From assembly GCA_910589415.1 (NCBI GenBank), contig OU342639.1:19848268-19912267 (forward strand): a stretch of DNA of 64,000 nt, read 5' to 3'. Positions 30,336 to 61,157 of this stretch are shown here, piece after piece; the first letter of the stretch is position 1; the number at the start of each line of letters is the position of its first letter. Origin of the DNA: Malachius bipustulatus. Lineage: Eukaryota; Arthropoda; Insecta; Coleoptera; Melyridae. Below the pieces are notes generated by a model. That model did no database searches. It was not told the DNA's origin and was given only the letters and a program-made list of their open reading frames with translations. The translations under genes and the position numbers were made by a program.

Positions 30336-30960
30336 TACTAAGTTTTTGAGTTATAAACAAGTGAAAATCGTCATTTTCCAAGTTCAAGGTCCTGTACAAT
30401 GAAAACGGTTCAAGATAGAGAAAAACGGCTTACATGTCCCTATTTTAACTTTTTATGTACTATCCTATGGTATAGAAAAATTTTTACTTTCTTTGATTTT
30501 TTTATTTGGCGACGCGTGGAGAAATCTCAGAATTTTTCAAATTTTTTATCACCCTGTATAAACATTTCATCTACATGGTAGGATAGTACATGAAAAAGTA
30601 AAATAGGGACATGTGAGCCGTTTGTCTCTATCTTCAGCCGTTTTCGTTGTACAGGGCTTTGAACTTGAAAAATGACGATTTTCACTTGTTTATAACTCAA
30701 AAACTTCTGAATTTAAACACCAACTGTAAAAGTCAATCTTATTTTCTCTTCTCAGACAATCTAAAAATGCAATAACATAGGAGCATTCCATTTAAAAAAC
30801 ATAACTTTGATATGCCACTGTCATATGGGACACTCTGTATACTCCAAAATAATTTTAAATTATGGCCATTGTGATCCTGTACTTGAATTTGCAAAAATTT
30901 TTTCGAAAAAATCAATCGTTTGGCCTACAGAGACCGCTTCGAATAAGCTGGGACAGCCTG
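30335..30960. mobile_element. MITE family A copy, left arm shortened
   Basis: Two inverted arms surround a centre near 30510. The left arm (30335-30478) has GAGTTATAAACAAGTGAAAA, then ACGGCTTACATGTCCC. The right arm repeats these in reverse and continues outward to GGGACAGCCTGTA at 30948-30960. CACCCTGTATAAA lies near the centre at 30550. An internal GGGACACTCTGTATA (about 30827) resembles a terminus well inside the arm. The outer left part is missing where the mariner element joins. Confidence 0.75.
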
Positions 30961-51667: not shown

Positions 51668-52515
51668 TACAGTGTGTGTCACAGGCATGGTACACCCCCT
51701 TTTTTTCTTTATTTTTTGAGATAATTTTTTAAAATTTGGTACGTCGCATATTCTCGATAGAGCGCACTTTTTAGCAGAAAATTGAATTTTTTCCCACATC
51801 CGGTTTTTCCGGAAATGTTACCAACTTTTTATTTTTAAATGGGACACCCTATATATTATTATATTTTTGGATTCTATACACTTGTGCTAATCCAACAATA
51901 CCACATAAGTACCATTTTAAATGTCAAATTTGTTTCAATTTAATTTTTTATTTCTCAATTATAGTGTGCCATGACTGTTTCGTTTTACTCCAATTGGATC
52001 ATCTAATGCTAGAAAAATCGAATTTTTGTTCAAAGTACTAAATTAAGAGTGATTTATGGATAAATTATGCGCACCGGAATGATTTTTTGAGCTGGATTCA
52101 TTTTTTTCAAATGGTACCATATTGGTACCGAGGTACCATCTACTAGTACTCTTAATAAGGGACATTTTGGTGTACCCATTTTGCATCTGTGACGAACACA
52201 ACTGAAGTCATGGCACACTATAATTGAAAAATAAAAAATTAAATAAAAACAAATTTTACATTTAAAATGGTACTTATGTGGTATTGTTGGATTCGTACAA
52301 GTGTATAGAATCCAAAAATATAATAATATATAGGGTGTCCCATTTAAAAATAAAAAGTTGGTAACATTGCCGGAAAAACCGGATGTGGAAAAAAATTCAA
52401 TTTTCTGTTAAAAAGTGCGCTCTATCGAGAATATGCGACGTACCAAATTTCAAAAAATTACCTAAAAAAATAAAGAAAAAAAAGGGGGTGTACCATGCCT
52501 GTGACACACACTGTA
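51668..52515. mobile_element. Foldback MITE with ~310-bp arms
   Basis: Arms 51668-51976 and 52206-52515 are inverted near-copies with ends TACAGTGTGTGTCACAGGCA and TA flanks. Shared marks include TACGTCGCATATTCTCGATA and CACATCCGGTTTTTCCGG. A second terminus-like AAATGGGACACCCTATATAT lies about 170 bp inside each arm. The 229-bp centre is unrelated and noncoding. The 94-codon frame across the right arm is a by-product of the repeat. Confidence 0.88.
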
Positions 52516-53473: not shown

Positions 53474-54331
53474 TACCGGGTGGGCATCTAAGAATGAACA
53501 GCGGCCATATCTTGGGAAATATTGATCCTACAGTTTCAAAAAAAAATTTTCCAGACATAAGTGACTATGCGAAACGCAATGAAAATATTTTCAAGATGGT
53601 CGCACTTCCGGAAATACCGGAAGTTGACACCTACTTCGTTATTTTAACGGGGACACCCTTTATATTATTGTATTTTTAAATTGCCTGGCAAAATCGAATA
53701 CAGGTGGTTTACACAATTGGATTTTAGGTTGAGTAGTTTATGAGTTATAAACAAGTGAAAATCGCAATTTTCAATTTTCAAAGCATCTCACATTGAAAAC
53801 GGCTCAAGATATTTAAAAATGGCTTACATGTCCCTATCTTAACTTTTTACAAGGTATTCTATTATGTAGTTTAGATTTTTCTACAGGGTAATGAAAAATC
53901 TGTTAATTTTCATCACCCTGTATAAAAATTTAAACCACATGGTAGGATACCTTGTAAAAAGTTAAGATAGGGACATGTAAGCCGTTTTTAAATATCTTGA
54001 GCCGTTTTCAATGTGAGATGCTTTGAAAATTGAAAATTGCGATTTTCACTTGTTTATAACTCATAAAACTACTCAACCTAAATTCCAATTGTGTAAACCA
54101 CCTGTATTCGATTTTGACCAGCAATTTAAAAATACAATAATATAAAGGATGTCCCCGTTAAAATAACGAAGTAGGTGTCAACTTCCGGTATTTCCGGAAG
54201 TGCGACCATCTTGAAAATATTTTCATTGCATTTCGCATAGTCACTTATATCTGGAATTTTTTTTTTTGAAACGGTAGGATCAATATTTCCCAAGATATGG
54301 CCGCTGTTCATTCTTAGATGCCCACCCGGTA
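53474..54331. mobile_element. MITE family A, complete palindromic copy
   Basis: The element is an almost uninterrupted palindrome: outer ends CCGGGTGGGCATCTAAGAAT on both sides with TA flanks, centre at about 53902, arms ~420 bp and a loop of only a few bases. From outside in, each arm carries GCACTTCCGGAAATACCGG, then a terminus-like GGGACACCC (about 53651), GGTGGTTTACACAATTGG, TGAGTTATAAACAAGTGAAA and TTACATGTCCCTATCTTAAC. Near the centre lies a further ACAGGGT / ACCCTGT pair. No protein is encoded. Partial relatives occur at 18.6, 30.3-31.0 and 43.6-44.5 kb. Confidence 0.9.
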
Positions 54332-57288: not shown

Positions 57289-57321
57289 GATTTATAATTA
57301 TTTTTATTGAACCACTAATTA
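57289..57321. repeat. 33-bp direct repeat, copy 1
   Basis: This 33-bp sequence (starting GATTTATAATTATTTTTATT and ending ACCACTAATTA) recurs without change at 61125-61157. Between the two lie the LINE and the hammerhead motif. It could be a long target-site duplication. Confidence 0.85.
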
Positions 57322-57437
57322 TTTGATTATATAATATTTGATGAATTTTATTGGGATTTAGGTTCTAATTTAAATTTGCCACTAAAGATTCTTTACAGAA
57401 CAAATTAGAAAAACTTTCGTACAGCATGCGAGGAGAA

Positions 57438-57501
57438 GACTGAAGACATGGGCGGTACCGTTTCGTCCTTATTATGGACTCATCAGCATATCATATCAGT
57501 C
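57438..57501 (-). ncRNA. Type I hammerhead ribozyme motif
   Basis: On the minus strand the invariant core CTGATGA lies at 57486-57480. Stem II GTCC (57479-57476) pairs with GGAC (57468-57465) around a 7-nt loop ATAATAA, and GAAA follows at 57464-57461. Stem III is minimal: CG(G) pairs with (C)CG across GTAC or TA (57460-57453). Stem I closes the motif: GATATG (57492-57487) with CATGTC (57450-57445, one G-U pair) and, past an asymmetric internal loop, GACTGA (57501-57496) with TCAGTC (57443-57438). Open stem I with a tiny stem III is the layout described for Penelope-like retroelements, which self-cleave their RNA. The base before the cleavage nucleotide is C (57452) where U is required, so this copy reads GCC instead of GUC and is probably inactive. 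Fragments of Penelope-like elements lie 1.2-2.6 kb away. Confidence 0.85.
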
Positions 57502-57836
57502 AGATCCAAACCACACATGATATACGAAATTTGGAAGTTATATCTATTCTAACTGGTGTTTTCGTTTTGTGATGACTTTTAATTTCAATGAGTAAGTAGG
57601 CAACCAGAGAAACGTGCGTGTCTTTATATAGTATTATCCTCGCTATAACAGTAGAGTTGTCATGGATTTATGAACTTTTACACTACTAATGCAGAGGTTT
57701 TATTATTTGTGTGTGTGTGGGGGGGGGGGGGGGTGGCCTCGAACAGGGTTCATTAGCCACAAAATATCAAACATCATCTATCTAGAAAAAATAGACTCTA
57801 AATAAAATATAAAAAATTAAATATAACTCGAAGAGT

Positions 57837-58952
57837 TTAGAGAGGTAGCTTTATAGCTATAAAAAAGTCAGTTAGAGCCTTGTAGATGTCCATATTTGCC
57901 AGTGCAAGGACATTTGTCAAGTTTGTGGGCCTATCCACCTTGTTTTCGTCTAAGGTCTTCCAAAGTCTTTCGGTGGCTTGAGAATTATTCCTGCATTTAA
58001 ACAATATATGGTTCAGGGAACCAACTTCTGAAGGGCAATGTGGGCACATAGGAGTATCATTTATCCCTATCTTATTTAAGTGTTCGGGAAATCTACCATG
58101 TTGAACTTTAAGCCTAAGTATAAGCGTTGTAGAGAAGCGACCTTTTTCGCGATACGGAAATGAAGATGGCAATATTGTGTGCAGAAGTGCATATTGGTTG
58201 TTTGACTGGTTCGTGAATTGTGCCCATTTGTTACTCCAGGCCACGTTCTCCATTCTCCAGAGGCAGGAACTAATATCTTTATGAGATACCAGCTCGACCC
58301 CCTCGCCAGAAGTCAGCGCCTCCCTCGCATATCCGTCTACTGTCTCATTTCCCGTGATACCTGCGTGACCCCTAGCCCAAATAAAGTGAACGCTGCACCT
58401 GGTAAGTTTCAGTAAGTAGCCAAGTTCTAGTATTTCTACAATTAAGTTGTTTTTGATGTGTTTATATATATTGCTATTTAATGCTTCGAGGACGGATCTG
58501 GAGTCTGTTATTATGGCTATGCTACCTATTGAATTGAGGTAGGCCCACTCTAATGCTTTTCGTATGGCACACGCTTCAGCGGTAAATATTGAGCAAATGT
58601 TCCCCAATTTGTATTTCATACTCAGGTTATAATCAGGACAGTATATCGCACAGCCAACTCCGGACTCCGATTTGGAACCATCTGTGTATATTGGGATGGC
58701 TTCGGGAGTTTTCTCCAACACATCTTTGATAATTATTGTGTTATTTATTCCGCCGTGGAAAGAGTACTGAGGGAAGGTAATCTTGGGAGTGTAATGAAGG
58801 AGTTCATATGGTTTCTGGAATAATAGAAATTTTGTTTGCGGTTGTGGAGTTTGCTGCAGGTTTTTAACAATCAAGAAACCCTGGCAAAGTAAGGGAATCC
58901 CCCTCTTTTCCCAGTATTTATCTGTTAGGGTGACAGTGCTTAATTTGGACAT
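57837..58952 (-). pseudogene. LINE ORF2, RNase H and C-terminal finger (continuation after frameshift)
   Basis: 371 codons are open in the frame overlapping the end of the RT by about 35 bp. The ATG at its start is not a real start; LSTVTLTDKYWEKRGIP joins the RT C-terminus once the shift is allowed for. RNase H shows all four acidic positions: IYTDGSKSESGVG (residues 88-100), FTAEACAIRKALEWA, IITDSRSVLEALN and WARGHAGITGNETVDGYARE. This enzyme removes RNA from the RNA-DNA hybrid. A finger MCPHCPSEVGSLNHILFKC (about residue 305) and a short C-terminus follow, with the stop next to 57837. RNase H appears catalytically complete. Confidence 0.9.
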
Positions 58953-60965
58953 GCAGTAAGTTTATTATATCGCTAGAGTTAAATTGTAGTAGCTTTGCTG
59001 CAAATTTGTTAGCCATATACTGTCTTCTATGTGCTAGAGGGATTTCGCCCGATTCCGCCAAAAGGATGGGACATGGAGTACATGGAGTACTCTTCATCGC
59101 GCCCAAGACAATTCGAAGGCATTTAAACTGAACGCGACCCACGTGGAGTAGCCTCGCCCTCGATGCCGTGCCATACAAGAATTGTCCGTATTCAACTATG
59201 GACCTGACAAAGGCTCTATAAAACATAAGAGAGATATGCACGTCTGCTCCCCAGTAGTGCTTGGTGGTACACTTAAGTATATTACAGGCCCTCTCCACTC
59301 GCGTTTTAATGTAATTTATGTGATCTGACCAGAGTAGTCTATTATCGATAATTAGCCCAAGGTACTTAAAGCGTTTCACAACTGGGAAGGTCATTCCACT
59401 CAAAGATACTGTTGTTTCTGCCTTATGATGATATTTTCTGCTTCTTGTGCATATCATTACTGCGCTTTTTTGTGGTGACAATTCGAACCCATGATTTGTC
59501 ATCCAGACTTTGAGTTCGGATACAATATTGTCGAGTTCAGTCACGCATTCTTCTACTGTGTTCCTAGCAGTTAAGAAGCATACATCATCAGCGTATTGTA
59601 TACAGGTGGGACCCTCTCGCAAGTTGTGCAGATTGGCTGTATATACGTTAAATAAGATTGGGCTTAGTACTGAGCCTTGCATTAGTCCTTGGGCTAATAT
59701 TCTAGGGCCATGAAGAATTCCCTTGTGGTCTCTTAAGAAAATTTTACGATTGGAGAAGAGCTGTAGTATACCGTTCACCACATTCTTTGGGCAGTGTATT
59801 TTAAACAGCTTTCGTGATAGCAAGTTCAGGTCGACAGCATCATACGCCCCCTCCATATCAATAAACAGTAACCCCACTGATTGTTTGTTTGTTAATGCGA
59901 GTTGAATGCTACTTACCAGGCACGTCAACGCATCCAAGGTACCCACACCACGTCGAAAGCCAAACTGATTACCGGGCAGCAAGGAATTAAACTCCAAGTA
60001 CCACTCCAGTCTCGCCTTAATCATTCTTTCGAACGTTTTGGCAAAGCAGGACATAAGCGAGATCGGGCGATAAGATGAGGGGAGCTCACCGTCCCTGCCA
60101 GGTTTCAGAAACAGACACACAGTTATTTCCTTCAACTGTTCAAAGGTTTCCCCTTTCGTCCACCAGGAGTTAAATATTTCCAACAAAATTTCTAAACAGT
60201 TATGTGGGAGGTGTTTGATGATAGGATATGTGAATTGATCTTTACCAGGTGCAGTGCTTTTTGAGTCTTTGATGGAGTTTTTCAGTTCTTTAATAGAAAA
60301 AGGGTCACCTAGCATTGAGCCTCTATTATGTAATGAATGATCGGGTTCGAACTTTATACTATTCTGAGCGGATGCTGGTGCCAATCGGTCCAGTATCATA
60401 TCTCTACGTTCATCAGACAAGACGGGGGACGCCTGAGTTCGGTAAGTATTTGAGATACGTTTCACCATTTTCCAGATTTGTGTGATAGGGGTTCTTCTAT
60501 TTAATTTACTTACATATGACTTCCAGCTCTCCCTACTTTTCTGCTTAAAGGTACGCTTAGCTTCGGCCTCTATGTTTTTGAATGTTAGATAGTGCTCTAA
60601 GTTGGATGTTTTCTTATAATTGGACAGGGCTAGTTTTCTTTTCCTTACCGCAGCCGAACACTCATCATCCCACCAAATGGGTTGTCGTTTTGTTGGGTAG
60701 GCTGCTCTTTTTTCTGGTACAGAGAGATTACAAGCTTCTTCTAAATGTGATAAGAGTCTCGAATATTTGGAGCAGTTGTTCTGTGAATTTGAGTCAGGGA
60801 GGGGAAGTTCGGTGAGGTAGTCGGAAAATTTAACCCAATCGGCCTTTTCCTCTTTCCACCTGGTTTTGGGGGGAGTGGGGTCGTGTTTATACTTTATATC
60901 TATCTTGATTACGATAGGCAAGTGAAAGGAACCCAAGGAGTCTTGATAGATGTCCCAAGTTTTAT
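58918..60965 (-). pseudogene. LINE ORF2, end of endonuclease and reverse transcriptase
   Basis: The minus frame starts upstream of the ATG at 60936; the preceding codons still read DIYQDSLGSFHLPIVIKI. This matches the final endonuclease motif S-D-H-x-P-I, with Phe in place of Asp. A linker follows (PIWWDDECSAAVRKRK near residues 89-104). The RT runs from about residue 235: STAPGKDQFTYPIIKHLP, ITVCLFLKPGRDGELPSSYR, LFIDMEGAYDAVDL with the first Asp, AQGLMQGSVLSPILFNVY, and IQYADDVCFL with the catalytic pair (YADD at 59595-59584). ELSPQKSAVMI and FKYLGLIID come next. The thumb follows (EYGQFLYG, FKCLRIVLGAMKS). 672 codons are open without a stop. A frameshift near 58945 cuts it from the RNase H frame. 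RT residues look intact. Confidence 0.9.
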
Positions 60966-61124
60966 TATTTCAAGAACTACACATTGATTCTCATTCATAA
61001 GTATATACCTACCCACATTCATTTTCAAGCTAATTTTATTGAATTTTTACTAGTGTATTTATAAAGTAGATGTTAATACACGAATTAAGATGTTATGGCA
61101 CATTCTTTCACCCTGGGCTTTTTA

Positions 61125-61157
61125 GATTTATAATTATTTTTATTGAACCACTAATTA
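61125..61157. repeat. 33-bp direct repeat, copy 2
   Basis: Identical to 57289-57321 and in the same orientation. It lies about 160 bp beyond the 5' end of the LINE. The extra flanking DNA on both sides means a simple LINE target duplication is not certain. Confidence 0.85.

Follow-up and report, generated by a model that had tools for sequence, protein, structure and literature searches.

Metazoan non-LTR retrozymes, as described in the relevant sections of PMC7229834 (Cervera and de la Pena, 2020), have monomers of ~170-400 nt, and the same source describes invertebrate hammerhead ribozymes (HHRs) in which helix III consists of 2 bp capped by a tetraloop. The HHRs of Penelope elements are of a minimal form, i.e., without helix III or without loop-loop contacts, in the parts of PMC7761336 and PMC6155905 that deal with them. 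In its account of Penelope structure, PMC3846280 describes direct pseudo-LTRs (pLTRs) with an inverted pLTR at the 5' end, one pLTR that bears a 31-bp tail, duplications of 8-10 bp, and head-to-head copies as the commonest inverted arrangement. For an Anolis Penelope element, the pertinent section of PMC11167929 reports that insertion in vitro does not require the HHR and that the ends of insertions coincide with the start sites of reverse transcriptase (RT). What moves animal retrozymes is left open in the corresponding part of PMC7761336, where no conserved motif points to one mover and Penelope and Terminon elements are considered likely candidates.

The window, i.e., the whole stretch of 64,000 nucleotides analysed here, contains a single HHR motif detected by a descriptor scan, at 57438-57501 on the minus strand. 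Its stem I is open and has two parts, an outer helix of 6 bp (GACUGA/UCAGUC) and an inner helix of 6 bp that includes one G-U pair (GAUAUG/CAUGUC), separated by a UAU/U internal loop. These are followed by CUGAUGA (CUGANGA in the consensus core), by a stem II of 4 bp (GUCC/GGAC) closing a 7-nt loop (AUAAUAA), by GAAA, and by a helix III of 2 bp (CG/CG) with a GUAC tetraloop on top. All of the core segments and stems listed in the initial annotation are thus present, as is the C in place of U that it placed at the cleavage triplet (position 16.1, window 57452): CC replaces the usual U-H, so that the triplet reads GCC rather than NUH, a change that we infer should abolish or strongly slow cleavage. 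That annotation also considered the layout to be of the Penelope type, which is not borne out, since the published minimal form differs from the closed helix III found here (relevant parts of PMC7761336 and PMC6155905).

Scores with covariance models were low. The initial annotation had treated a sub-threshold score as refutation and, formally, that is what was obtained, with no match for the window HHR at Rfam gathering thresholds. The best-scoring families, Hammerhead_HH9 (RF02275) and Hammerhead_1 (RF00163), share the same core and topology. Hammerhead_HH9 gave 21.9 bits against a gathering threshold of 52 (E = 0.0039 over 351 bases, or 0.71 over the whole window against 4227 families), while two genomic copies with a GTC triplet (L047 and L059) reached 28.1 bits with Hammerhead_1, below its threshold of 34. 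In the unconstrained minimum-energy fold of the HHR strand alone, stems I and II are predicted to form and the core to pair otherwise. When window-length order-2 Markov sequences were scanned on both strands with C permitted at 16.1, none of 2000 matched with an inner stem I of 6 bp, and one of 2000 with 5 bp. At the level of sequence, 57438-57501 is confirmed as a genuine type I HHR motif.

Relatives are abundant in the host assembly (544 Mb in 52 contigs). The HHR core with up to three mismatches occurs at 889 places (reversed control, 0), and an exact 22-mer carrying the GTC triplet occurs 591 times. A search with 241 bp around the HHR (1469 candidates, 40 scored) listed 44 matches of which, besides the window, 40 were full length at 95-98% identity. 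A 200-kb random sample of the genome gave no match to 57440-57700, although other HHRs were present in it. We aligned 27 pieces representing 20 loci, which had been selected from the 40 candidates scored (1469 in all); one piece misses the triplet, and in the remaining 26 it was GTC (25) or ATC (1), never GCC, so that NUH was found in 26/26. Relatives with the usual triplet, expected in the initial annotation, therefore exist, and their paired stems are conserved, which goes against the second refuting condition of that annotation, namely unconserved stems in genomic relatives. Bases departing from the majority made up 10/1664 within the HHR and 119/5564 in the flanks (Fisher p = 7e-6), a lower variation that would be expected if source copies need the HHR. 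This is not proof of such a need and may be overstated, because the aligned copies are the best matches to a query containing the HHR, a selection in which old copies are under-represented. Two loci (L064 and L054) have further core changes in the HHR.

Comparison of copies indicates that the HHR belongs to a non-coding unit of ~573 bp, which in the window runs from 61157 to 57290 on the minus strand and is split by a LINE. The right part (57290-57708) begins with the LINE's target-site duplication, includes the HHR and closes with a tail, and the left part (60959-61157) matches DNA upstream of uninterrupted copies in the 3/3 that were read; without the LINE, the two parts (61157-60959 plus 57708-57290) make an element of 606 bp. 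The tail is present twice on the minus strand, as 32 nt at 57290-57321 and at 61126-61157, with no mismatches between them. The LINE itself (57709-60958, minus strand, 3250 bp) encodes RVT_1 and RNase_H domains and is flanked by a 12-bp target-site duplication, AAATAATAAAAC, at 57697-57708 and 60959-60970 (both minus strand). The initial annotation was right that the HHR adjoins the 3' end of a LINE, and the reason is that the LINE was inserted inside the HHR element. Upstream of the HHR, at 57623-57630 on the minus strand, lies TATATAAA, which from its sequence we take to be a TATA-box-like motif and hence a candidate promoter element. The unit has a GC content of 0.309, and the circular fold predicted for a 572-nt monomer has a z-score of -3.5 against 60 shuffles. 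No stop-to-stop frame longer than 68 aa was found in a three-unit locus (L059), and an open reading frame for RT with GIY-YIG was absent both from the unit and from 4 kb beside three copies, where the longest frame was 156 aa.

The arrangement of the copies was examined in the first 100 listed of the 889 places. Neighbours within 3 kb numbered 29, of which 13 were direct, 16 head-to-head ('-+') and none tail-to-tail ('+-'). The period of the direct tandems was 571-574 bp in 13/13 spacings, and the largest array in this set combines three units in one orientation with four in the opposite one; dispersed single copies also occur. In seven of nine stretches the outer flanks of head-to-head arrays could be compared, and they shared 9-13 bp in 7/7, against a mean of 5.7 and a maximum of 8 in 42 cross-locus comparisons. 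The automated search detected no inverted outer end in the other two stretches (C13 and C6), though C6 does carry an inverted piece; the direct copy at C13 has, by eye, an 11-bp flank duplication. The tail (~40 nt) was found on exactly one outer end in 7/7 arrays, with the other end stopping about 40 nt earlier. Given the shared outer flanks and the single tailed outer end, each array appears to represent one insertion. At seven loci with both arms readable, none of the 14 inner-junction coordinates fell at the cleavage site, the nearest being 15 nt off. The location of insertion ends at RT start sites in the Anolis element, as given in the cited section of PMC11167929, fits these junctions. 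The window copy shares six flank bases, with no clear duplication.

Further HHRs were observed in the same genome. A second family consists of tandem units of ~320 bp (L002, L007, L009-L024) scoring up to 60.1 bits with RF00163; all 74 scored matches (of 73468 candidates) were above the cut-off of that model, and among 57 listed places on C1 there were five '-+' and no '+-' neighbours. Descent of the ~573-bp unit from this family is not supported, since only short matches were found: 29 A/T-rich nt at 86% identity in opposite orientation (E = 9e-5) and 27 nt at the HHR core at 81% (E = 0.05) between the units, and at best 34 nt (E = 0.003) against fetched loci. At two loci of the ~320-bp family (L012 and L013) the arms stop 0-2 nt from the HHR cleavage site, and visual inspection shows an 11-bp flank repeat at L013; in this family, RNA ends created by HHR cleavage may in some cases determine where insertions end. 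A third family (L034:8054-8465, and the minus strand near 1910) gives weak RF00163 matches (32.6 and 29.7 bits) within a 787-bp palindrome. Inverted pairs of HH9-like matches, up to 38.7 bits and below the cut-off, at C16:11469742-11470197 and C7:40970888-40971098 are possibly another HHR family; the same search also gives matches in 11/14 control genomes. A repeat, CTGATGA...GACGAAAC, at L026:5822, at L032:8705 and on the minus strand of L032 at 1693 resembles an HHR core and fails the descriptor. The window also holds inverted-repeat elements at 30363-30683, 51918-52264 and 53661-54144, some of them repeated elsewhere, whose sub-threshold matches to miRNA families are probably spurious.

The initial annotation had placed the HHR near Penelope-like fragments, and upstream of one RT fragment in particular. 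Such a fragment does exist nearby, at ~55.6-54.9 kb (RVT_1, E = 1.8e-5, 25 bits, under the Pfam threshold of 29.6). It gave no match at E 0.001 in a protein database and a single, chance-level match in the PDB. However, it is not one element with the HHR: membership of the HHR in this fragment is rejected because the element ends at 57290 in its tail, which is the outer end of other copies too, leaving the fragment outside. The 150 matches obtained with the fragment in its own genome, out of 724 candidates (those other than the fragment itself being 44-58% identical), include Penelope frames open up to 865 aa. Within 8 kb, the RT neighbours in this set were 28 '-+', 2 '+-', 7 '++' and 5 '--', and most tandems were spaced 3065-3374 bp. 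Open frames of this kind are many, e.g., at C2:44403013-44409397, and lie in direct tandems of ~3.1 kb and in head-to-head pairs; one locus (L069) is a near-perfect palindrome of 4.3 kb. The Penelope pieces contain RVT_1 and GIY-YIG domains, the GIY-YIG match in L069 being below the Pfam cut-off. Comparison of the unit with 16 such pieces, which may cover the pLTRs only in part, gave a sole match of 17 nt (L075, E = 0.004), a result that so far speaks against a partner with shared sequence. None of the 16 contained an HHR satisfying the descriptor (L068 has an imperfect one) or a convincing tail: forward scores never exceeded the largest of 20 mononucleotide shuffles, and on the reverse strand L073 (27 versus 26) and L076 (27 versus 24) were slightly above the shuffle maximum.

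The unit resembles the metazoan non-LTR retrozymes of PMC7229834, in the features covered by the relevant sections, in its type I HHR with a 2-bp helix III and tetraloop, its tandem non-coding units, its GC content under 45% and its dispersed short arrays. It differs from them in length, and also in its head-to-head arrays and one-sided tail, the words "inverted" and "head-to-head" being absent from the main text of that paper. With Penelope-like elements, as portrayed in parts of PMC3846280 and PMC11167929, it shares head-to-head inversion, a tail at one end, short duplications, a TATA-like motif and a type I HHR; unlike them, it has no RT/endonuclease frame, and its helix III is closed.

We consider it likely that the window element has decayed from a retrozyme-like family of short retroelements, non-coding and non-autonomous, which carry a type I HHR with a closed helix III and were inserted in the manner of Penelope. 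The unit, its tail, the direct tandems, the head-to-head arrays, the flank duplications, the conserved HHR and the LINE insertion can all be read directly from the DNA, and the case draws on the number of genomic copies, HHR conservation, the tandem period, array polarity, outer-flank duplications, the one-sided tail, the matching Penelope geometry, the lack of long frames in L059 and the circular fold predicted for the monomer. Points against it are a unit of 572-574 nt that exceeds the published ~170-400 nt, a window copy without a clear duplication, and the lack of a partner Penelope, or of an HHR satisfying the descriptor, among the 16 pieces. Penelope-type insertion as such is nevertheless supported by the architecture, even without a partner, and the Penelope link drawn in the initial annotation remains plausible by that route rather than through the neighbouring RT fragment.

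On this reading, the HHR would cut array transcripts into RNAs of ~573 nt, with a Penelope-type RT/GIY-YIG protein, provided in trans, copying circles or uncut multimers. Of these two templates, the present data favour neither over the other; on a linear RNA cleaved by the HHR, copying from the tail end could cover about 162 nt at most. Reverse transcription would have two fixed start sites close together, one where the tail ends and the other ~40 nt short of that point, each serving one nicked strand of the target. Both cDNAs would extend around the template and then be linked head to head, so that just one outer end retains the tail. Such a mechanism would explain why multi-unit arrays continue across the cleavage site, why orientation is biased and why the tail is one-sided. 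Alternatively, head-to-head copies could arise by self-priming on an antisense template, which is preferred for Penelope in the corresponding section of PMC3846280.

A different origin, which we regard as unlikely, is that the unit is the pLTR of a full-length Penelope family and the arrays are solo-pLTR products rather than an independent lineage. The tail, the inverted arrangement and the TATA-like motif are all features of rotifer pLTRs, and solo pLTRs and captured non-coding DNA have also been described there (sections of PMC3846280). Against this, the unit sequence is missing from the 16 Penelope pieces apart from the 17 nt, no frame above 156 aa lies in the 4 kb beside three copies, and 0/13 listed direct spacings of the unit are near 3 kb, where most Penelope tandems have spacings of 3065-3374 bp.

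Returning to a decayed retrozyme-like copy, cleavage in the window copy has probably been lost, since GCC was never found in the 26 fetched copies, and the suggestion in the initial annotation that it may be a fossil holds up well. Synthetic hammerheads have given rise to an NHH-type cleavage rule, under which a GCC triplet could still be cut. That the window copy is such an active ribozyme is very unlikely: its other 63/64 HHR bases do equal the majority of the copies, but 0/26 copies use GCC and a LINE splits the element. Slightly less probable again is a satellite that was propagated through recombination or in the form of DNA circles, with the HHR as a passenger; tandem units in many copies would suit it, but dispersed single copies, outer-flank duplications, a one-sided tail and strict head-to-head polarity would not, nor would an HHR that varies less than its flanks. 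A chance motif, for which the sub-threshold Rfam scores might speak, can be dismissed given a Markov null near zero and 889 relatives against none in the control.

HHR retrozymes and Penelope architecture are each already known; what we did not find in the open-licence literature searched is their union in one large non-coding family. Here a large retrozyme-like family has the insertion fingerprint of Penelope, and open Penelope frames that share this geometry are numerous in its genome. This brings the question of which autonomous element moves animal retrozymes within reach of a test, and hints at the origin of head-to-head insertions. We propose, tentatively, that Penelope RT/GIY-YIG proteins mobilize the HHR retrozymes of animals by means of two target-primed starts on HHR RNA in circular or multimeric form, one at the end of the tail and the other ~40 nt short of it, with each cDNA passing around the template and the two being joined head to head. 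If this is true, divergent arrays, one-sided tails and the duplication around the whole array would all follow from a single step, for retrozymes and Penelope elements alike.
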